Below are positions 9,735 through 57,248 of a stretch of DNA of 64,000 nucleotides, piece after piece (position 1 is the first letter of the stretch; every line of letters starts with the position of its first letter). Location: NCBI RefSeq assembly GCF_030389965.1, contig NZ_CP128400.1, forward strand, positions 1,736,001-1,800,000, in the 5' to 3' direction. The notes under the pieces are model-generated. The model did not search any database and had not been told where the DNA came from. It was given only the letters and a program-made list of their open reading frames with translations. The translations under genes and the position numbers were made by a program. This DNA comes from Candidatus Chlorohelix allophototropha (lineage in GTDB: Bacteria > Chloroflexota > Chloroflexia > Chloroheliales > Chloroheliaceae).

Positions 9735-11255
9735 ATGCCTAGTATAGACGAAATAGTTGGAGCTTTGCAAAAAATATTTGGGGAACGAGCCAAAGCACTA
9801 GCGAACGAGCAAGGAGTGAACAAACGCAGCTCGAAAATCACAGGGACAATTTTGGCACTGGTGTTGGTAACAGGCTTTATGAGCCAGCCCGGCGCCAGCC
9901 TTAACCAATTGAGCCAAATAGCCCAACAATTCGGTGTAAATGTCACCCGCTCGGGGTTGAGCCAACGCTTAACCTCAGTGACAGTGGAGTTTTTACGCTT
10001 GCTATTCGAAGAAGCGCTACAAGTGTGGCAGCAGCGAGAAGGTTTGTGGTTGGAACTGTTTGAACCTTTTAGAGGAGTGTACCTGATAGATAGCACTCAT
10101 ATAGGGCTAGCTAACAAACTGGCGGATAGTCAGCCTGCCAGTGGTGGACAGGCTGGCAAAGCCGGTATGAAGTTACAAATAACCTATGATTATTTGCAGC
10201 AGCAAGTGGAGGTTGTGACGGCACAAGCGGCGCTGGAACCAGATCAGAGCTTTGAAGATAAGTTGGAAAAATTACCGGAAGGCAGTTTGGTACTGTTTGA
10301 TTTGGGTTATTGCACCCTGGAACGGCTAAAACGGCTGATGGCAGCTCATTATTTTGTGAGCCGCTTGCCCCCCAAGGTGCATTTGTATGAGCAGGGGAGT
10401 AACCAGCCCCTGGCTTTAGGGTCGGAATTAAGGCGCAGAGGAGGTACCTGCGCAGGAACAGTAATAGAGTTAAGAGTGGAAGTAGGGCAAAAAGAACGGT
10501 TGAAGTTACGGGTAGTGGCACAAGTGCTACCGCAAGAAGCTTATCTCCAGCGGTTGGCGCAAGCGAAAAAGGTTAGCCAACTCAAAGGGCGGGAGTTGAG
10601 TGCCGCGACAGCTGAGCGGTTACGCTGGAACTTGTATCTAACGAATGTGCACGAGAGCTTGTTAAGTGGTTATCAGGTGGGTATAGTCTATCACTTGCGC
10701 TGGCAAATCGAGTTGCTTTTTAAGCTCTGGAAAAGTGGTTTGGGACTAGCACAGAGCGGCAACAAGAAATTGAGCCGGGTATGGTGCGAAATCTATGCCC
10801 GGTTAATTGGCTACACCCTGCTGATCTATTTGAGTTGGGGAGTAGCAGGGAGTGAAGAAATGGGGGAAGCGGAAGAAACCAACTTGGTAGAAGCACTGGT
10901 GGGATCATCAGGAGGAGAAAGCAACCGTCAATGGCAAGAAACGGACAAAGCGAAGTTAGGCAGGGCGAAGCCCCTTATATTGCAGGCGCTCATAAAGACA
11001 ACGCGGGAGTTGAGCCTAACGAAAGCGCTTCAGACCTTAGGTACAGAAATCGTAAGGCTGGGCAAAGCCTTGCTGAGAGGTAAAGACAAGAAAGTAAAGA
11101 AATTGATTAAAAAGCTCAGGAAAAGATGGGGCCGCTATAGTTTGAAAGAGAAAAGAGCAGATCGCCTCACTAGTTACCAACAGATTAGCCAAATTCAGTT
11201 AAGCACCCGCGAGCTACATGCTCCCGACCTTACACTAATATGCAAAGTTGCCTGA
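9735..11255 (+). CDS. IS4-family transposase (IS A copy 1)
   Basis: A 506-residue DDE transposase. The first Asp is in YLIDSTHIG (about residue 120), the second in VLFDLGYC (about 190), and the glutamate lies in YHLRWQIELLFKLWK, an exact Y-x2-R-x3-E-x6-K signature of the IS4 family. The C-terminus is basic (KKVKKLIKKLRKRW). The gene is intact and starts at ATG 9735 after AAAGGAA. It differs from copy 2 by one visible residue (Glu here, Lys there, in ATAxRLRW). Confidence 0.95.
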   Translation: MPSIDEIVGALQKIFGERAKALANEQGVNKRSSKITGTILALVLVTGFMSQPGASLNQLSQIAQQFGVNVTRSGLSQRLTSVTVEFLRLLFEEALQVWQQREGLWLELFEPFRGVYLIDSTHIGLANKLADSQPASGGQAGKAGMKLQITYDYLQQQVEVVTAQAALEPDQSFEDKLEKLPEGSLVLFDLGYCTLERLKRLMAAHYFVSRLPPKVHLYEQGSNQPLALGSELRRRGGTCAGTVIELRVEVGQKERLKLRVVAQVLPQEAYLQRLAQAKKVSQLKGRELSAATAERLRWNLYLTNVHESLLSGYQVGIVYHLRWQIELLFKLWKSGLGLAQSGNKKLSRVWCEIYARLIGYTLLIYLSWGVAGSEEMGEAEETNLVEALVGSSGGESNRQWQETDKAKLGRAKPLILQALIKTTRELSLTKALQTLGTEIVRLGKALLRGKDKKVKKLIKKLRKRWGRYSLKEKRADRLTSYQQISQIQLSTRELHAPDLTLICKVA

Positions 11256-31747: not shown

Positions 31748-32785
31748 TCAATCCGTTTTGCTATCCGGTTTTTCAGGCTTCTTTCCACCTTCGATTATGG
31801 TTATACCTCTTTCTTCGGCGCGGGAACGGGCGCTACGATCGTTTTTTTTTGAATCGTTGCCCTTAACCTTATCCTCGCTTACCGTGCGTCGCGGCGGGCT
31901 TTCCGGTGCGGGCGCTACTTGGGCGATGGTCGGGAAGAAATTAAAGTTTTCCACCGGGCTTATAAGCCTGAGACGCAAGGCGCGTTTATAAAACTCTTGT
32001 AACCCATTCAGAAACGCGGCATTATATTCGTATTTTTGCGAGCTGTAATGCTTCGTTAAGCCTTCGGCGGGCAATCCGGTGCGTTTTTCCTCAATCTCAA
32101 CCACTGTAGAAAGAAACTCACGGGACTTTTGCAGGGAGGAACGCAGAAATTGGGTTAATTGCCTGACCTGCTTATCAGCGTCCGGTTCTTTTTCCACAAA
32201 GGCGCGGCGCACCACAAACAGGGCAGACGGAAGCGGTTGCCCTATCAACAACCACCATGCCTTGCTCATGTCCTCTACAAAGTACCCCCGCTCATTAGCC
32301 GGTCCCGCAGCGCGCATTCCTACTTCGCGACCTACCACGCACATATCAACTTCGGGCGAGGAAAAAAGGTTTAGAGCATCAAGGTCACTTGCCACCGGCT
32401 TAAACTCAGGCTCAAAGCCGTAGTAAGGACGGGCAAGCACCTTCAGCAAGATTTCTCCGGTATGGTTACGAACTGAAACTGCAACGCGCGGTTTCTCAAA
32501 GCTATCTAACCGCTTCTTGCTGAGTAGGAACAGATTATTGCTGTTCATATCTGAGCCGTAGAGCAAGGCGGATAAAATTCTAAGCTCGTTTTGATATAGC
32601 GCGTAAAGGGCAGGGTCAACGGGCGCAACATCCACATCCCCGTTGAGCAAGCGCATCATACAATCTTCGGCGGTACCAGGCACCATTTCTACCAAATCGG
32701 CGGGTGGAATTGCCCAGCCTGCTTCGATTGGGAAAAAGAATGGCGCGAAATCCAAATCATTGGTTGTTGCTAATTTAATAGTCAT
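31748..32785 (-). CDS. MqnA-like (chorismate dehydratase family) protein with C-terminal extension
   Basis: Periplasmic-binding-protein-like fold of the MqnA/MqnD type without signal peptide. LLNGDVDVAPVDPALYAL and ILSALLYGSDMNSNNLFLLSKK match the LxxGEVDVAxVPS and I-S-xGPVxSV region of MqnA, and WWLLIGQPLPSALFVVRRAF matches the late TGLPFVFA motif. MqnA makes 3-enolpyruvoyl benzoate for menaquinone by the futalosine route. Residues 285-345 are an added charged, Pro/Lys-rich tail. The operon partners are not menaquinone genes, so another ligand-binding role is possible. Confidence 0.7.
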   Translation of the reverse strand: MTIKLATTNDLDFAPFFFPIEAGWAIPPADLVEMVPGTAEDCMMRLLNGDVDVAPVDPALYALYQNELRILSALLYGSDMNSNNLFLLSKKRLDSFEKPRVAVSVRNHTGEILLKVLARPYYGFEPEFKPVASDLDALNLFSSPEVDMCVVGREVGMRAAGPANERGYFVEDMSKAWWLLIGQPLPSALFVVRRAFVEKEPDADKQVRQLTQFLRSSLQKSREFLSTVVEIEEKRTGLPAEGLTKHYSSQKYEYNAAFLNGLQEFYKRALRLRLISPVENFNFFPTIAQVAPAPESPPRRTVSEDKVKGNDSKKNDRSARSRAEERGITIIEGGKKPEKPDSKTD

Positions 32786-32791
32786 TTAAGC

Positions 32792-33580
32792 TTATTTCCA
32801 GCGCGTAAGTATCGTTTCACGGTCAAATAATTTCCCTGCAATCCAGAAAGTCAGAGCAGCGGCTGCCACCCATACCAGCAAGCCTACTACAAATATAAGC
32901 CAATTTACCGTAATAAAACCTAAAGTTACTCCAAAAACGAATATAACCAGCGGGATAACCAACAAACTCCCGGCTTGCGAAGCCGCCCGCGCATCTCTTG
33001 CGCGCGAGGATATTGCTACCCCCACAAGGGTTGCCCATGTTGCCAATGCCGGACTCCAAAAGCCGATAATAGCGAACCATAACAATAAATCCAGTTTGGC
33101 AAAAACATTGGGCTTTAAAACCAGACTCAAAACCAGCACCAGTAGTATAAAACTACCCCAAGTGACTACTACACCCGGCACAATCGCCGAAAGGCTTTTT
33201 CCCCACAGTAATTCAGTGGTAGTTACAGGGGTAGCCAGCAACGGTTCAAGGCTGCGTTTCTCTTTCTCGTTCACCACGCTATTTGCGGCAATGGTCATCG
33301 GCAAAACAGCGGGTAATGGCAAGAAAAAGGTGAAACAGATAGTTACCAGACCCGCCAACAGCCTTACATTATCATCGCCGCTCAACAGACCAAGGCTGCT
33401 TACAGTTTCAGGCGCACGATTTTTTTCGGCAAAATCCAGTACAAAGGCATTAAAGAATACTACCAAGCCCATTGGTAGTAAAACCAGAATAAGCGGTAAA
33501 ATAGCCAGGGTTTGCAACAGAGTGCGATTTTTGCGCATCTCTTTCCATTCGCGGCGAAAAATCACCAGTGTTCGGTGCAT
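32792..33580 (-). CDS. ABC-2 type transporter permease (NatB-like)
   Basis: A 262-residue membrane protein with six spans. VVNEKEKRSLEPLLATPVTTTELLWGK is the conserved cytoplasmic loop of ABC-2 permeases of the NatB type, and a cytoplasmic IFRREWKEMRKN start precedes span 1. The missing ATPase is not in this operon. It begins 2 bases after the double histidine kinase gene and ends 6 bases before the MqnA-like gene, so regulation of or by this transporter through the kinase is plausible. Confidence 0.88.
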   Translation of the reverse strand: MHRTLVIFRREWKEMRKNRTLLQTLAILPLILVLLPMGLVVFFNAFVLDFAEKNRAPETVSSLGLLSGDDNVRLLAGLVTICFTFFLPLPAVLPMTIAANSVVNEKEKRSLEPLLATPVTTTELLWGKSLSAIVPGVVVTWGSFILLVLVLSLVLKPNVFAKLDLLLWFAIIGFWSPALATWATLVGVAISSRARDARAASQAGSLLVIPLVIFVFGVTLGFITVNWLIFVVGLLVWVAAAALTFWIAGKLFDRETILTRWK

Positions 33581-33582
33581 AA

Positions 33583-35283
33583 TTACTCATTTACCGGCAC
33601 ATTTGCCACGATTGTTGTTCCCGCTCCCGGTTTGCTGGTAATAGTCATAGTGCCACCTAGCAAGCGAACCCGCTCTTCCATACCAACCAAGCCGAGGTGT
33701 TCCATATTAACAACCCCATTATCGCTACTGTCTGAGACAGCGTCAAGGTTGTGGCGATTTTGCCATTTTTGTACTTCAAAGCCTTTGCCCCAATCTTGCA
33801 CGGTCAACGTAACAATACCGGGGTCACGCACAAGGCGAACCAGCACTTGTTTTGCCCCGGAATGTTTGTACACATTCGTTAGAGCTTCCTGTGCAATACG
33901 AAAGAAATTTTCTGCTATCTGAGGGCTAATGGTACTATTGCCGGGTTCTCCAAATTTGCCGATTACATCGAAATTGCCATCCCAGTCATTTTTGTTGCAC
34001 ATTGTATTAAAAGATTCGCGCAAGGCGGGAATTAAGCCAAAACGATCTAACGTATCGGGACGCAATCCGGCAATGATACTGCGTACTTCAGTTCGAGCCG
34101 ATTTTAAGGTTTCTTTGGCGCGTTTGTAGGCAGAAGATGAGGAGGCATCTTGCACCTCTACCTCAATTAGTTCTACCATCTGATGACCAAAGGTGAGAGT
34201 TTGCGCCAGCCCATCATGCAAATCTCTGGCAACTTTCTTGCGTTCCTCTTCTTGTGCCGTCAGTAATTTTGAAAGGAACAGGTTCAAGCGATTCTGCTTT
34301 TCTTCCAATTCTTCTTTAAGCTTTGCCAATATCTCGTTCTTTTTGCGCTCATCATCGTACATGCGGCGCAGGTCACGCGCATAGAAAAGGTTGAGGGATT
34401 GCACATGATCAAGGCGTTGTTTTAGTAAGATCGGGTCTTGCCACGAGCTATAGGGCAGCGTAACCTTAAAGAAATTCCCTTCTGTCGCGGAACTGGTAAC
34501 GTCTATTTCTCCCTTAAAGCTGGAAACGGTATGCTGTACCAACGCCAAACCAAGCCCTAACCCACTATAGTTGCGAGAATCGACAGACTGGATTTGCTGG
34601 AAAGGATAATAGATTTGCGCTATTTTTTCGGGAGGGATGAAAACACCACTATTACCGATTTCAAGCACAAGCTTCTCGATTTCCTCACCCTCTGTAAGAT
34701 AAAGATTAATCTTTATCCAACCGCCCACTTGATTAAATTTAATGGCATTGCTCAATAAATGTCCGATAATCACACGGAAGCGGGCTGGTTCTATATTAGC
34801 AGGGAATATTTGCTCAGGCACATTAAGCTGAACCACTAAACCTTTTTCATCAATAGAGCTTTGCTGCTTTTCAAGCTCTTTCTTAACCACCAGCGAAAGG
34901 TTACTGGTCAACTCCGGGTCGGACAATTGTAAGAGCGGTTCGCTGCGGGTGAGATAGGTAAAATTGGTAATATCTTCTACCAACAAGCTGAGTTGCTGCG
35001 CCTGTTGGTGGGCAAGATTGAAATACTCGGCTTCCTGTGGCTGTAATTTATCAGCCAGCATTTCCGACAATATCTGTAAGTAGCCGTTGATAATGGTAAC
35101 GGGAGTATTCAGTTCGTGGCTCACTATCTCCACGAAAGTGCTTTTCATCTCATCTAGCTGTCGAAGTCGGTCGTTTGCTCGCTCAAGTTCATTTCGTTTG
35201 AGGCGTTCCTCCTCATAAACGACCTTAAAGTCACGCGCATATATAATCATTTGTTGTTCAAGTTGATTATATTTAGGGTTCAT
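33583..35283 (-). CDS. Cytoplasmic histidine kinase with two complete kinase modules
   Basis: Two modules in 566 residues. The first is of HisKA type: EIVSHELNTP with H56, N-box HLLSNAIKFN (175-184) and G-box GLGLGLALVQ (241-250). The second is of NarL/DegS type: ARDLHDGLAQT with H356, N-box EALTNVYKHSGA and a final G-rich GLVGMEERVRLLGG. Each module is preceded by a similar coil, YARDxxxxYxxERxK at about 16-30 and 302-315. No sensor or membrane domain is visible. No response regulator is adjacent. It heads an operon with an ABC-2 permease, an MqnA-like protein and a PfkB kinase. Confidence 0.92.
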   Translation of the reverse strand: MNPKYNQLEQQMIIYARDFKVVYEEERLKRNELERANDRLRQLDEMKSTFVEIVSHELNTPVTIINGYLQILSEMLADKLQPQEAEYFNLAHQQAQQLSLLVEDITNFTYLTRSEPLLQLSDPELTSNLSLVVKKELEKQQSSIDEKGLVVQLNVPEQIFPANIEPARFRVIIGHLLSNAIKFNQVGGWIKINLYLTEGEEIEKLVLEIGNSGVFIPPEKIAQIYYPFQQIQSVDSRNYSGLGLGLALVQHTVSSFKGEIDVTSSATEGNFFKVTLPYSSWQDPILLKQRLDHVQSLNLFYARDLRRMYDDERKKNEILAKLKEELEEKQNRLNLFLSKLLTAQEEERKKVARDLHDGLAQTLTFGHQMVELIEVEVQDASSSSAYKRAKETLKSARTEVRSIIAGLRPDTLDRFGLIPALRESFNTMCNKNDWDGNFDVIGKFGEPGNSTISPQIAENFFRIAQEALTNVYKHSGAKQVLVRLVRDPGIVTLTVQDWGKGFEVQKWQNRHNLDAVSDSSDNGVVNMEHLGLVGMEERVRLLGGTMTITSKPGAGTTIVANVPVNE

Positions 35284-47309: not shown

Positions 47310-48611
47310 ATGAAATACTTGAACACTTGGAACTATTTACTCCTAATGAATGAATCACAAGATATCAGCAATAGCCCTGACAATTTAACAAGGCACAAGC
47401 AAGCAGAACTCGAAAAGAGCAGATTGCGCTTTCGGATTGCAATTTCAAACGAACTCCGCATATCGGCTGCTCGGATTGCACATTTGTGTGAGACATTACT
47501 TACTTTCGAGGATGACCCTAGCCTGCTATTTGCAATTTCAGATTTGCATAATATTCGCGATGCCAGTAAACATTTGCAGCAACAAATCAGAAGTGGGCTA
47601 AATCCACAAACAATGATGACTAATCCTCCCGATTTAGGGTTATTAAGGCACGAACTACGAAATCCCCTCAATCAGATAATCGGCTACAGTGAAATGCTGG
47701 AAGAAGAAGCCGAAGACCGGGGTGCTTTGCAGTGGATTGAGGAGTTCCAGCGGTTACAGATAGCCGCTAATCAAACGCTTTTGCTGATAAATGACAATCT
47801 TACCCAAGCTCGTTTCGATTGTGTTGATCCTGACACTGACTTACGCGCTTTCGGTACAAACAGGTTAGATAGAACCACCGGAAAGCTAGAAATTAAGCAA
47901 CCCGGTAATATACTGTTGGTGGACGACAGCGCAATGAACCGTGATATGCTATCCAGAAGGCTAAGGCGGCAAGGTTATAACGTGCAACTGGCTTCTGATG
48001 GCTTGGAAGCCCTTGAAAAAGCTAAGAAAGGTATCTTTGACCTTATATTGCTCGATATTGTAATGCCGGAAATGGATGGTTATCAAACACTCGAAAAACT
48101 AAAGTCTAATCCTGCCCTTAGCGATATTCCGGTGCTAATGATTTCCGCCCTTGATGACACTGAAAGCATTGTAAAATGCATTGAAATGGGCGCAGTTGAT
48201 TATCTTCCAAAGCCTTTTGACCCGGTGATTTTAAAAGCGCGCATTGGCTCTAGTCTCGAAAAGAAACGCTTGCGAGATCAGGAAGTGGAATACTTGAGAC
48301 AAGTAGCAAAAATCACTACGGCTGCGGCTGCCGTTGAAAATAACAATTACAGGCACGAGTATCTGAACGAAATAGCCAGCCGAGAAGATGAACTAGGGCA
48401 ACTTGCCAGAGTTTTCCAGAAAATGGCGCATGAAATTTATGCGCGTGAAGAACGGCTACGCCAATTGGTGGAAGAACTAAAAATCGAAGTGGATGAGGCA
48501 AAAAAAGCGCGACAAGTGGCAGCAATTACAGAAAATGATTACTTTCAAAAATTGAAAGAGCGGGCGCAAGAATTAAGGGAAAGAAACAGTAGGGCAATCG
48601 AGGAAAACTAG
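47310..48611 (+). CDS. H-box (HisKA-like) and receiver domain protein without kinase ATPase domain
   Basis: A 433-residue protein. LLRHELRNPLNQIIGYSEMLEEE around H114 is a typical HisKA phospho-acceptor helix, but no HATPase domain follows. A full receiver domain comes next: VDDSAMN (Asp 205-206), LLLDIVMPEMDG (Asp 249) and YLPKPFDP. The last 120 residues are a HAMP-like and coiled-coil segment (REDELGQLARVFQKMAHEIYAREERLRQLVEEL). It would receive phosphate from another kinase. The gene is 2 bases before the MinD-like gene, so both products probably act together. A start at the Met at 47346 is possible. Confidence 0.85.
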   Translation: MKYLNTWNYLLLMNESQDISNSPDNLTRHKQAELEKSRLRFRIAISNELRISAARIAHLCETLLTFEDDPSLLFAISDLHNIRDASKHLQQQIRSGLNPQTMMTNPPDLGLLRHELRNPLNQIIGYSEMLEEEAEDRGALQWIEEFQRLQIAANQTLLLINDNLTQARFDCVDPDTDLRAFGTNRLDRTTGKLEIKQPGNILLVDDSAMNRDMLSRRLRRQGYNVQLASDGLEALEKAKKGIFDLILLDIVMPEMDGYQTLEKLKSNPALSDIPVLMISALDDTESIVKCIEMGAVDYLPKPFDPVILKARIGSSLEKKRLRDQEVEYLRQVAKITTAAAAVENNNYRHEYLNEIASREDELGQLARVFQKMAHEIYAREERLRQLVEELKIEVDEAKKARQVAAITENDYFQKLKERAQELRERNSRAIEEN

Positions 48612-48613
48612 TA

Positions 48614-49381
48614 ATGCCAAGAACGGTGTCCGTTCATTCATTTCGAGGCGGTACGGGAAAATCTAATCTGACGGCTAATTTGGCGGCGATTCTTGCAGCA
48701 TCTGGAAAGCGGGTTGCAATAGTTGATACCGATATTCAATCGCCCGGAGTTCATGTCATTTTCGACTTGGATAAAAATTCTACTAACCTTACTTTAAATG
48801 ATTACCTGTGGGGTCGTTGCAGGATAGATGAATGTGTTTACGATGTGAGCGCGATCCTTCAAGATACCGCTTGTCCCATTTCACAGCAAGGGGCAATTTA
48901 CCTTGTGCCATCCAGCATTAAAACCGGACAAATAACCCGTATTCTTAGCGAAGGATATGAGATTGGTTTGTTGAATAATGGGCTTCAGGACATCAAACAC
49001 CGCTTTAAGCTTGATTATTTATTCATAGATACCCACCCCGGCTTGAATGAAGAAACATTGCTGTCGATTGCAATCTCAGATTTGCTGGTTATTGTCCTTC
49101 GTCCCGACAAGCAAGATTATCAGGGAACAGCGGTAACCGTAGAAGTAGCGCGAAAACTGAGCGTACCCAATATGATTTTAGTTGTGAACAAAGCGCTACC
49201 AGCCCTTGATTTTAATAGCCTTTCACAACTTGTCAGTGATACTTTTCAGGTTCCGGTAGCAGCGGTATTGCCTTTATGCGAGGATATGGTTCAATTAGGC
49301 AGCAGCGCGGTGTTCAGCCTGCGCTTTCCCGATCACCCTTTTAGCCACAAGCTCAAGGATATTGCCGAACTACTGGTCTAA
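48614..49381 (+). CDS. MinD/ParA-like ATPase
   Basis: A 255-residue P-loop ATPase of the MinD/ParA class. The deviant Walker A is SFRGGTGKSNL (KGG replaced by RGG with the signature Lys apparently lost), with VAIVDTDIQSPGVH (A') and DYLFIDTHPGLN (Walker B). No C-terminal amphipathic membrane helix as in MinD is evident. It follows the H-box/receiver gene by 2 bases; such pairs are known in other bacteria as signalling modules. There is no minC, minE or parB near. A role in placing the signalling protein in the cell is a guess. Confidence 0.88.
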   Translation: MPRTVSVHSFRGGTGKSNLTANLAAILAASGKRVAIVDTDIQSPGVHVIFDLDKNSTNLTLNDYLWGRCRIDECVYDVSAILQDTACPISQQGAIYLVPSSIKTGQITRILSEGYEIGLLNNGLQDIKHRFKLDYLFIDTHPGLNEETLLSIAISDLLVIVLRPDKQDYQGTAVTVEVARKLSVPNMILVVNKALPALDFNSLSQLVSDTFQVPVAAVLPLCEDMVQLGSSAVFSLRFPDHPFSHKLKDIAELLV

Positions 49382-49393
49382 ATAAGCTTGCCC

Positions 49394-50860
49394 CTATAAC
49401 TCCAGCGTCATGCCATCTCTGGCAGCCACAATCTTAAGGTCATTAAAGCCTATCGCTTGTCTGCGCTGATTAGCCAACTCTAGTAACAAGTCAATAGTGT
49501 CATCATCATTAGAGGGGTCATGGTGGTACAAAACCAGTTTTTTGACCCCCGCTCTGGCTGCGGTATCGACTGCTACTTCGGGCGAGCTATGACCCCACCC
49601 AATTTTATTGGCTAACTGGGCAGAGGTGAATTGGGCATCATGGATTAATATATCGGCGTTGTGGGCGAGTTCTAACAAATTAACGTCAATAATATCGTCC
49701 CCCATTAGTTCGTTTGGCTTCGGTTGAGGCAAACTTAGCGGCTCATGGTCAGTGGCGAAAACAATACTTCGGTTATTAAGTTCAACTCGATAAGCAGCGC
49801 TAGGTATAGGATGTTTGAGCAACTTTCCGGTAATTTGCGCGCCATCCAGAAAATAAGTCCCATTTTTCATGGAAAAGAAGTTAAGCTCGGAGGGTAGAGA
49901 GTGCAGGCTGACCGGAAAATAGATTTGCTCCATCTGACGTGCCATTATGCTCATTAGCGTTTGCGAACAACTGCTCCAGCCAAGCGTATTGAAGCGATTT
50001 CCCGGTTTAAAGACCGGACTAAAAAAAGGAAAGCCTTGAATGTGATCCCAATGAGTATGGCTAAGAAAAATATAGCCATCAACCTGCTCTTTCCCCGAAA
50101 CTTCCAGCCACGCATCCGAAATTAAATAATTACCGAGTTCTCTCGCGCCAGAACCGCAATCAAAAATAAATAAATGCCCGGTATCGCTGGTTAAGCTGAC
50201 ACAACTGGTATTACCGCCATAACGTTGGTAATCTATTCCTGAAACGGGAATAGAACCGCGCGTACCCCAGAACCGCACCTGCAATTTGGTAGGGCTAGCA
50301 AGGGGCGTATCCCGCTCAATTTGCATAGCTTTACGCCGTTCGCTGCGCCATTTCTCAATACCATCGGTATAACCACTCCAGCCTCTTACCAAATTTAAAG
50401 CGTATTCGAATTCAGTCATAGAACGGGGTTTGTTAATCTCTGCCTCAATGCCGACCCATTGCACATAACCTTCCACATCAATTAATACTGTTGCCCTTTT
50501 GCATTGGTTATCGGCATTTAACAAACCGTAGGATGCTGCTAAGCTATTGTCAGGGTCACTGATTAAAACGATTTGTTCCAACCCAACCTGATGGGCAAAA
50601 GCATTATGCGAGGCTACGCTATCTTTACTTATACCAAAAGTTTTAAGTTTTATATTCCCGCTGAGCTTAATCATTTCTTCCAATAAGGGCAACTCATCGC
50701 TGCAAACGTCACTCCAATCTGCCCGATAGAAAATGAGCAAAATTGCGGTATTGCTTAGATAATCACCTAGATTGATTTCACCGGACGTACTCTGCGCTAT
50801 CCAGATGGGTGATTTTTCACCTGCCTTTATTTGGGTTTTATTTATATTTTGTGATTCCAT
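49394..50860 (-). CDS. Redoxin and metallo-beta-lactamase fusion protein
   Basis: A 488-residue two-domain protein. Residues 10-160 are AhpC/TSA-like: LLIFYRADWSDVCSDELPLLEEM has C53 in the peroxidatic place, followed by FGISKDSVASHNAFAHQVGL and a DVEGYV strand. Residues 193-488 are a metallo-beta-lactamase fold starting VRFWGTRGSIPVSG, with HTHWDH at 268-273, a later VFATDHEP and LIHDAQFTS with further metal ligands, and GWGHSSP. The second part is of the RNase Z/PhnP-like class. The fusion is rarely seen. It converges on the MinD-like gene with 12 bases between stops. Confidence 0.88.
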   Translation of the reverse strand: MESQNINKTQIKAGEKSPIWIAQSTSGEINLGDYLSNTAILLIFYRADWSDVCSDELPLLEEMIKLSGNIKLKTFGISKDSVASHNAFAHQVGLEQIVLISDPDNSLAASYGLLNADNQCKRATVLIDVEGYVQWVGIEAEINKPRSMTEFEYALNLVRGWSGYTDGIEKWRSERRKAMQIERDTPLASPTKLQVRFWGTRGSIPVSGIDYQRYGGNTSCVSLTSDTGHLFIFDCGSGARELGNYLISDAWLEVSGKEQVDGYIFLSHTHWDHIQGFPFFSPVFKPGNRFNTLGWSSCSQTLMSIMARQMEQIYFPVSLHSLPSELNFFSMKNGTYFLDGAQITGKLLKHPIPSAAYRVELNNRSIVFATDHEPLSLPQPKPNELMGDDIIDVNLLELAHNADILIHDAQFTSAQLANKIGWGHSSPEVAVDTAARAGVKKLVLYHHDPSNDDDTIDLLLELANQRRQAIGFNDLKIVAARDGMTLEL

Positions 50861-54102: not shown

Positions 54103-55517
54103 ATAGGTTACAAGTTAAGGGTTCTAAAGGATTGTCAAGCAAAAAAGAAGCAAAATAGCTTATAATTTGAGGTATGAGTACCCAAAATAATAATAAAAAG
54201 AATACCAAAACGAGCCATTCACGTCAGACCAGAGCAATAATGTTGGAGCGCTCAAAACGACCCGTCCCCGCCCCAACCGAGCAGGAAATAGAGCAACTGC
54301 TCAATCAGTTGATCGAACCAGCAATTCTAAATCTGACGCAGCATTATCAAAGCTTAGGCTTACGTTGCCGTACCCTCACCCTACCAGTAATGGTTTGTTT
54401 CCTGATTAGTCTAATCTGGCGACAATTGGGTTCGGTCAGTGCCGCGGTTAGAGAACTTAATCAGTACGGACAACTGTGGCAACCAGCCCTTAAAGTAAGC
54501 CAGCAAGCCGTGAGTGAACGTTTGCGAGAGTTGCCCGCTAGTCTATTTGAAAGTATTTTAAGGGAGGTCTTGCCAGAAGTACAAAAACGTAGCCAAGCTC
54601 GCCAACGTCCCCTCCCGAAAGAGTTGCAAAAGGGACTGGCTGAGTTCAAACAGATAGTGGCAGTGGACGCTTCCAGTTTGGATGCCTTGATAAAGAAAGT
54701 GGGTTTGTTACGGGAAACTGAGCAGACGGTATTAGGTGGGCGAATGTTAGCAATGTTAGACTTGCGTAGTCAATTACCTACCCAAGTATGGTATGAGGAG
54801 GATAGTTACTGCCACGAACAGAACTGGTGGGAACAAATTTGTGAAAGCCTGCCCAGTGGAGCTTTACTGCTGTTCGATTTAGGCTTCATGAATTATGGGC
54901 GATACGCTCAGTTAAGCTCAGAAGGCAAATACTTTATCAGTCGGGTCAAGAGCAGAATGGTGCATCAAGTTCTCCAGAAGTTAAGCTGGAGAGAGGGGCA
55001 GCGTGAATGGCTAATACAAGTGAAAGATGCGGCTAGGCAACCGTTAATATTAAGGCAAGTGGAAATAGAATATGCGGGTAAATGGTACAGTTATGTCACC
55101 AATGTGCTGGAGCTAGAGCGGTTAAGTGGCACTCAAATCGCCGAACTATATCGGCAACGCTGGCGGATAGAGGATGCCTTCAAAACGGTAAAACGGTTGC
55201 TGGGCTTAGCTTATTTTTATGGCAGTAGCCAAAACGCCATATTATTACAGTTATGGACAACCTGGTTAATGTACAGTGTCTTGATTGATTTGAGTGATGA
55301 GGTGGCGGAGGAATTGGAACTGCCTTTGAGCCGAATTTCGGTAGAAATGGTATATCTGGGGCTGGGTCATATAAGCCGTGTGAGGGCTAGAGGGCTAGAA
55401 GTTAGTGTGGTTCAGTATTTGGCCACTAATGCCAAACTTTTAGGGATTGTCAAACGTCCAAGACCCAGACCTAAACCTGATTTGACTTTCCCTTTAATTT
55501 CTTAACTTGTAACTGAT
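54103..55517 (+). mobile_element. IS4-type insertion sequence B (1415 bp)
   Basis: Ends ATAGGTTACAAGTTAAG at 54103-54119 and the complement of ATCAGTTACAAGTTAAG at 55501-55517. The flanks GGGGTGTCCCC at 54092-54102 and 55518-55528 are a perfect 11-bp duplication within an R2 unit. One intact transposase gene. The ends resemble those of IS A (shared AGTTAAG and ATAGG). Confidence 0.93.
54174..55505 (+). CDS. IS4-family transposase (IS B)
   Basis: A 443-residue DDE transposase. VAVDASSLDALIK has the first Asp, LLFDLGFMN the second, and YRQRWRIEDAFKTVK the Y-x2-R-x3-E-x6-K signature with the catalytic Glu. The N-terminus is basic and Thr/Asn-rich, and the C-terminus ends in a basic PRPRPKPDLT stretch. 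It shares the fold but little direct identity with the IS A transposase. The gene is complete, with TTGAGG before the ATG. Confidence 0.94.
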   Translation: MSTQNNNKKNTKTSHSRQTRAIMLERSKRPVPAPTEQEIEQLLNQLIEPAILNLTQHYQSLGLRCRTLTLPVMVCFLISLIWRQLGSVSAAVRELNQYGQLWQPALKVSQQAVSERLRELPASLFESILREVLPEVQKRSQARQRPLPKELQKGLAEFKQIVAVDASSLDALIKKVGLLRETEQTVLGGRMLAMLDLRSQLPTQVWYEEDSYCHEQNWWEQICESLPSGALLLFDLGFMNYGRYAQLSSEGKYFISRVKSRMVHQVLQKLSWREGQREWLIQVKDAARQPLILRQVEIEYAGKWYSYVTNVLELERLSGTQIAELYRQRWRIEDAFKTVKRLLGLAYFYGSSQNAILLQLWTTWLMYSVLIDLSDEVAEELELPLSRISVEMVYLGLGHISRVRARGLEVSVVQYLATNAKLLGIVKRPRPRPKPDLTFPLIS

Positions 55518-55593: not shown

Positions 55594-57248
55594 ATAAGCG
55601 TATAGTTAAGAGAATCACAAATAGAAAGAGGTGAGTTCCTCTGGTAAGATGTAAGACTCTTCAACTCTTACTACAAAACCAAAGGAAACTCACATGCCTA
55701 GTATAGACGAAATAGTTGGAGCTTTGCAAAAAATATTTGGGGAACGAGCCAAAGCACTAGCGAACGAGCAAGGAGTGAACAAACGCAGCTCGAAAATCAC
55801 AGGGACAATTTTGGCACTGGTGTTGGTAACAGGCTTTATGAGCCAGCCCGGCGCCAGCCTTAACCAATTGAGCCAAATAGCCCAACAATTCGGTGTAAAT
55901 GTCACCCGCTCGGGGTTGAGCCAACGCTTAACCTCAGTGACAGTGGAGTTTTTACGCTTGCTATTCGAAGAAGCGCTACAAGTGTGGCAGCAGCGAGAAG
56001 GTTTGTGGTTGGAACTGTTTGAACCTTTTAGAGGAGTGTACCTGATAGATAGCACTCATATAGGGCTAGCTAACAAACTGGCGGATAGTCAGCCTGCCAG
56101 TGGTGGACAGGCTGGCAAAGCCGGTATGAAGTTACAAATAACCTATGATTATTTGCAGCAGCAAGTGGAGGTTGTGACGGCACAAGCGGCGCTGGAACCA
56201 GATCAGAGCTTTGAAGATAAGTTGGAAAAATTACCGGAAGGCAGTTTGGTACTGTTTGATTTGGGTTATTGCACCCTGGAACGGCTAAAACGGCTGATGG
56301 CAGCTCATTATTTTGTGAGCCGCTTGCCCCCCAAGGTGCATTTGTATGAGCAGGGGAGTAACCAGCCCCTGGCTTTAGGGTCGGAATTAAGGCGCAGAGG
56401 AGGTACCTGCGCAGGAACAGTAATAGAGTTAAGAGTGGAAGTAGGGCAAAAAGAACGGTTGAAGTTACGGGTAGTGGCACAAGTGCTACCGCAAGAAGCT
56501 TATCTCCAGCGGTTGGCGCAAGCGAAAAAGGTTAGCCAACTCAAAGGGCGGGAGTTGAGTGCCGCGACAGCTAAGCGGTTACGCTGGAACTTGTATCTAA
56601 CGAATGTGCACGAGAGCCTGTTAAGTGGTTATCAGGTGGGTATAGTCTATCACTTGCGCTGGCAAATCGAGTTACTTTTTAAGCTCTGGAAAAGTGGTTT
56701 GGGACTAGCACAGAGCGGCAACAAGAAATTGAGCCGGGTATGGTGCGAAATCTATGCCCGGTTAATTGGCTACACCCTGCTGATCTATTTGAGTTGGGGA
56801 GTAGCAGGGAGTGAAGAAATGGGGGAAGCGGAAGAAACCAACTTGGTGGAAGCACTGGTGGGATCATCAGGAGGAGAAAGCAACCGTCAATGGCAAGAAA
56901 CGGACAAAGCGAAGTTAGGCAGGGCGAAGCCCCTTATATTGCAGGCGCTCATAAAGACAACGCGGGAGTTGAGCCTAACGAAAGCGCTTCAGACCTTAGG
57001 TACAGAAATCGTAAGGCTGGGCAAAGCCTTGCTGAGAGGTAAAGACAAGAAAGTAAAGAAATTGATTAAAAAGCTCAGGAAAAGATGGGGCCGCTATAGT
57101 TTGAAAGAGAAAAGAGCAGATCGCCTCACTAGTTACCAACAGATTAGCCAAATTCAGTTAAGCACCCGCGAGCTACATGCTCCCGACCTTACACTAATAT
57201 GCAAAGTTGCCTGATTTTAACTTGTGAAAGGCTTAACTATACGCCTAT
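55594..57248 (+). mobile_element. IS4-type insertion sequence A, copy 2 (1655 bp)
   Basis: Same ends and length as copy 1. The flanks GGGTGCAACCC at 55583-55593 and 57249-57259 are a perfect 11-bp duplication inside the second R2 unit. By eye it differs from copy 1 at four bases (corresponding to 10614, 10659, 10715 and 10889). Confidence 0.95.
55694..57214 (+). CDS. IS4-family transposase (IS A copy 2)
   Basis: A 506-residue protein, the same as copy 1 except for Lys in place of Glu in ATAKRLRW, shortly before the YREK region. Catalytic residues and the Y-x2-R-x3-E-x6-K motif are intact, so it is probably active. Its ribosome site is also covered by an upstream complementary GTGAGTTCCT. Confidence 0.95.
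   Translation: MPSIDEIVGALQKIFGERAKALANEQGVNKRSSKITGTILALVLVTGFMSQPGASLNQLSQIAQQFGVNVTRSGLSQRLTSVTVEFLRLLFEEALQVWQQREGLWLELFEPFRGVYLIDSTHIGLANKLADSQPASGGQAGKAGMKLQITYDYLQQQVEVVTAQAALEPDQSFEDKLEKLPEGSLVLFDLGYCTLERLKRLMAAHYFVSRLPPKVHLYEQGSNQPLALGSELRRRGGTCAGTVIELRVEVGQKERLKLRVVAQVLPQEAYLQRLAQAKKVSQLKGRELSAATAKRLRWNLYLTNVHESLLSGYQVGIVYHLRWQIELLFKLWKSGLGLAQSGNKKLSRVWCEIYARLIGYTLLIYLSWGVAGSEEMGEAEETNLVEALVGSSGGESNRQWQETDKAKLGRAKPLILQALIKTTRELSLTKALQTLGTEIVRLGKALLRGKDKKVKKLIKKLRKRWGRYSLKEKRADRLTSYQQISQIQLSTRELHAPDLTLICKVA

Follow-up and report, generated by a model that had tools for sequence, protein, structure and literature searches.

A single gene of the photosynthetic lake bacterium 'Candidatus Chlorohelix allophototropha' encodes a histidine kinase with two transmitter modules of two different classes and no receiver, an arrangement that is rare but genuine. 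Receiver-free kinases with two transmitters are already known as a kind, and this protein is a rare new form of them in which the modules differ in class. The gene lies in the window, by which we mean the whole 64,000-nucleotide stretch analysed (C2:1736001-1800000 in the numbering of the host genome). We propose that module 2 is the output kinase and that module 1 is a regulatory input joined to it by a coil, a reading that we regard as evenly balanced between right and wrong. The domains, motifs, conservation and gene order can be read directly from the sequence, and from there we infer the direction of control, the signal and the partner.

ORF analysis showed that the gene, for which no strand had been given, reads on the minus strand from an ATG at 35283 down to 33583 and has a product of 566 aa, and Pfam gave the domain order as coil, HisKA, HATPase, coil, HisKA_3 and HATPase (Table 1). 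The first-pass annotation had described two histidine kinase modules of different classes in these 566 residues, with phosphoacceptor residues H56 and H356; both modules were recovered, the histidines lie where they had been placed, within SHELNTP and RDLHDGLAQ, respectively, and the pair is conserved in a second genus. It had also called both modules complete, which holds for module 2, where all motifs are present, but needs qualifying for module 1, whose G1 box is non-canonical. The Pfam scan of the 566-aa protein found no sensor domain and no receiver domain, as had been claimed, and no transmembrane-like stretch was seen (the highest 19-residue hydropathy mean was 0.85), in agreement with the cytoplasmic location that had been suggested. 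With two transmitter modules (DHp plus ATPase) and no receiver, the protein falls among the non-hybrid two-transmitter histidine kinases, and it is soluble and probably dimeric. Its stop-to-stop frame is 567 aa, so no in-frame N-terminal sensor can be added to it.

Table 1. Features of the double histidine kinase gene and its downstream neighbours (window coordinates).
Feature	Position	Strand	Evidence
Whole gene, soluble double histidine kinase, 566 aa	33583..35283	-	ORF; Pfam domains; orthologue in G086 with both modules
Coil 1 (residues 1-45), IYARDF..VYEEERLKR	35149..35283	-	Repeat of coil 2; 57% identical in orthologue
Module 1 HisKA (residues 46-109), H56	34957..35148	-	Pfam PF00512; H-box conserved
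Module 1 HATPase_c (residues 166-278), N179 and G2 intact, G1 NSGVF not DxGxG	34450..34788	-	Pfam; comparison with other HisKA kinases
Linker and coil 2 (residues 279-346), FYARDL..MYDDERKK	34246..34449	-	Alignment; GAF inside this segment in G086; helix in low-confidence model
Module 2 HisKA_3 (residues 347-412), H356	34048..34245	-	Pfam PF07730
Module 2 ATPase domain (about residues 430-566): N-box QEALTN, G1 DWGKG, G2 GLVGM	33586..33994	-	Second HATPase_c stretch; motifs conserved in orthologue
ABC-2 type permease, directly downstream, 2-base gap	32792..33580	-	Pfam ABC2_membrane_2; same order in G086
VitK2_biosynth (MqnA/MqnD-like) protein, next downstream	31748..32785	-	Pfam PF02621; same order in G086

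The search for the same architecture in other genomes, which had been recommended as a check, was successful. Among 158 genomes of the class, the sole match at E ≤ 1e-40 beyond the window's own genome came from another genus of the same family (G086), where a protein of 759 aa, 48% identical, carries both modules in the same order in an uninterrupted frame. By Pfam, this orthologue has a GAF domain at residues 357-494, between the modules and inside the segment that matches the window linker, which in the window protein consists of 68 coil residues and holds no receiver; Response_reg had no match in either protein. GAF stood in front of HisKA_3 in 9 of 10 scanned relatives of module 2. With a GAF present in the orthologue and these relatives usually built as GAF-HisKA_3, the window protein probably lost a sensor secondarily, and the simplest ancestor to suppose would be HisKA-HATPase followed by GAF-HisKA_3-HATPase. 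The lack of a sensor domain thus applies to the window protein and not to its orthologue. The scan of genome contigs for further double kinases gave single-module matches only, and across the 158 class genomes and 400 genomes of the phylum G086 was the only one, with 2 to 8 candidates scored per genome, so that rarity in the phylum is only roughly gauged.

Kinases of this composition are nearly absent from a 2010 survey, in which 2 of 15,704 non-hybrid kinases and 51 of 4,650 hybrids have two transmitters and 96.2% of all such proteins have a receiver (PMC3018481); the two non-hybrids likewise combine two transmitters with no receiver, a likeness of domain count only. A table in PMC4603909 lists one myxobacterial protein that has at least two transmitters and lacks a receiver. 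TodS, from Pseudomonas putida and relatives, also holds two autokinase modules in one soluble protein, but its modules are separated by a receiver, each follows a PAS sensor, and phosphate is relayed inside the protein (PMC4861429), whereas the double kinase has neither receiver nor sensor and its modules, unlike those of TodS, belong to two classes. At the position of the TodS receiver, the window protein has only coil and the orthologue has the GAF. The GAF-HisKA_3-HATPase kinases of Chloroflexota, which belong to the NarL-partner class, resemble module 2 and the GAF of the orthologue; compared with them, the double kinase has an entire extra HisKA-HATPase module at its N-terminus.

A similar coil with YARD...Y..ER.K had been noticed before each module, and this repeat exceeds chance as judged from the sequence. 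The local alignment score between coil 1 and coil 2 is 59, which plain shuffling reached 3 times in 5000 and heptad-preserving shuffling 44 times in 5000, and coil 1, when searched against the whole genome, matched besides itself coil 2 alone, weakly (E 0.7). Coil 1 was the best conserved of the segments compared between the orthologues (57% identity), followed by HisKA and HisKA_3 (52% each) and the ATPase domains of module 2 (51%) and module 1 (46%). The full-length structure prediction was of poor quality and was used for secondary structure only; in it, with low confidence, a long helix at residues 284-376 takes coil 2 into the second DHp as a single helix.

Module 1 retains H56, N179 and a GLGLGL G2 box, as expected of a canonical HisKA kinase, and departs from one at the G1 box, where N211 replaces the adenine-binding Asp of DxGxG and F215 the second Gly. 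The orthologue has NGGVT there, with the same Asn and with Thr at the second Gly position, while its H-box is conserved and H56 is present. In a sample of 39 other HisKA kinases of this genome, all 39 had the Asp and 38 the second Gly. An alignment mixing both modules put the module 1 homologues in the wrong place and was left out of folding. The predicted structure of module 1 is an ordinary DHp plus CA core (mean pLDDT 84.6) with the ATP-binding fold fully retained, and the solved structures nearest to it include HK853 and GacS. VanSA and VanSC share both G1 deviations, Asn for Asp and no second Gly, and bind ATP at low millimolar, yet are working kinases, and a hydrogen bond between Asn and adenine has been seen in ThkA (PMC10017428). 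Because of these precedents, we dropped the idea of a dead pseudokinase, and the justified description of module 1 is a predicted weak or unusual nucleotide site. VanS itself is a single-module membrane sensor, unlike the double kinase, and module 1 scored 92.7 bits against the curated VanS model, far below the 400-bit cut-off.

Module 2 matched PF07730 (HisKA_3) above the cut-off and carries H-box, N, G1 and G2 motifs, which places it in the class of kinases that partner NarL. Its motifs were the most alike of all between the orthologues (N-box 86%, G1 73%, G2 82%).

If module 2 is the output kinase, it would autophosphorylate on H356, and a NarL/FixJ-type regulator from another locus would receive the phosphate. 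Module 1, sitting in the sensor position, would bind ATP weakly or bind a regulator, and its state would pass through the coil 2 helix and set the activity of module 2; the kinase may help control the process served by the ABC-2 permease and MqnA-like protein encoded downstream. The intact, strongly conserved motifs of module 2 are consistent with this proposal, and so is a G1 box that has lost its Asp and second Gly in both genera, given that this pair of changes accompanies low-millimolar ATP binding in VanSA and VanSC. Module 1 is nevertheless still under constraint, as indicated by its conserved domains and coil and its ordinary fold, and it stands where sensor domains stand, with coil 2 modelled as one helix into the second DHp. 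The shared order of kinase, permease and MqnA-like genes in two genera points the same way. Several observations speak against it: H56 is conserved, VanS shows that full function can go with such a G1 box (module 1 could then itself be an active kinase), no partner regulator could be found within 12 kb or from the family distribution of orphan regulators, and the permease operon occurs without the kinase in a sister genus.

A bolder version, which we put forward tentatively and consider unlikely, is that a whole kinase core acts as the sensor of another in the same chain: module 1 would read the ATP level or the phosphorylation of a regulator and gate module 2 via the coil, one two-component pathway thus feeding another. 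In DivL and RetS, a kinase core has taken on the regulation of other kinases, and the module 1 model matches both structures. DivL is a precedent for a kinase core reused as input, but it has Tyr for the phosphoacceptor His and acts on a separate protein, CckA (PMC4211667), whereas H56 is kept in both orthologues and the proposed target of module 1 is in the same chain. If module 1 does gate module 2, the protein would be a compact example from nature in which a kinase core serves in cis as an input element, within a single soluble protein, and would bear on the purpose of VanS-like weak ATP sites.

It had been suggested to look for cognate response regulators, OmpR-like and NarL-like. About 148 receiver matches were counted in the genome. 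The two closest to the kinase lie some 12.6 kb and 17.2 kb from it, and because no response regulator gene lies within 12 kb of it, neither partner could be named. By position in the genome, four HisKA_3 kinases including the double kinase have no adjacent regulator, and two REC-GerE regulators have no kinase. One of these orphans (C1:2585242) has no clear orthologue outside its own genome among the five family genomes, while the other (C1:1290204) has relatives in all five, three of which are without the kinase. Since the distribution of neither follows that of the kinase, pairing by family distribution was rejected and neither orphan is singled out. Elsewhere in this genome (G000:C1:155570-158555), two NarL-type kinases stand in tandem with one shared adjacent REC-GerE regulator, of which the orphan at C1:2585242 is the closest paralogue in the genome (47% identity).

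The first-pass annotation had offered two mechanisms, control of one module by the other and phosphorylation of different regulators. In the second case, the kinase would be two independent active kinases in one chain, with an OmpR-like (or CheY-like) regulator as the target of module 1 and a NarL-like regulator as that of module 2, to give two outputs in fixed proportion; we consider this unlikely, with roughly a one-in-four standing. The intact H56, N179 and G2 box of module 1 are compatible with it, VanSA, VanSC and ThkA illustrate that an Asn at this place can sustain kinase activity or contact with adenine (PMC10017428), and TodS has two working autokinase modules (by the title of Busch et al. 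2009, cited in PMC4861429). However, the change from Asp to Asn was seen in 0 of the 39 other HisKA kinases sampled, no regulator gene lies nearby, and the non-canonical G1 box makes two equal, independent kinases less likely. Improbable, in our view, is that module 1 serves in phosphotransfer or as a phosphatase, H56 taking phosphate from a separate receiver or the HELNT motif stripping it off, with ATP hydrolysis secondary. The H-box is kept despite the altered G1 box, the genome has many receiver proteins, and a second transmitter can be a phosphotransfer domain in double-transmitter systems (RedF and TodS, discussed in PMC3018481), but the ATP-binding fold of module 1 is retained in the predicted structure and the protein lacks the receiver that nearly all two-transmitter kinases of that survey had. 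That module 1 is a fusion remnant in decay, with only module 2 of importance, would suit its G1 box and the probable loss of the GAF; we hold it very improbable, because conservation is about equal in the two modules and highest in coil 1, and the G1 change, being common to both genera, is old.

A joining of two genes by assembly or sequencing error, which the first-pass annotation had named as the refuting case, has a negligible chance and was rejected, because the frame has no stop at the module junction, the independent G086 genome has the same fusion and the same downstream genes, and the five contigs of the window's assembly (among them 2,961,161, 2,453,413 and 375,274 bp) agree in size with the published closed genome of strain L227-S17 (PMC10972752), whose two chromosomes measure 2.96 and 2.45 Mb and which also has a chromid of 375 kb and two plasmids.

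The order of kinase, ABC-2 permease and MqnA/MqnD-like gene, all on the same strand, is kept in the window and G086, and the three are probably co-transcribed. The sister genus (G083-G085) also has the permease and MqnA-like genes, but other genes lie upstream of them, and the kinase had no match above threshold in those genomes; the kinase therefore either entered this operon within the family or was lost from it, as read from the sequences, and its functional link to the operon is uncertain for the same reason. A promoter and terminator scan gave no clear excess over shuffles. In other families, an ABC ATPase gene usually precedes the permease (a GPNGAGKTT motif is visible in the ORFs). The permease and MqnA-like pair was found without an adjacent ABC ATPase in 5 of 5 family genomes (window 31748-33580 (-); G083:C30, G084:C4, G085:C80, G086:C531).

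Other genes of the window were also recorded. A 433-aa protein at 47310-48611 (+) combines a HisKA phosphoacceptor domain with a receiver and a HAMP-like segment, has no ATPase domain, and is followed after 2 bases by a ParA/MinD-like ATPase (48614-49381, +). At 49394-50860 (-), a 488-aa fusion joins an AhpC/TSA-type redoxin to a metallo-beta-lactamase-fold domain. Two near-identical 506-aa DDE transposases lie 46 kb apart at 9735-11255 (+) and 55694-57214 (+), and a different DDE transposase is found at 54174-55505.
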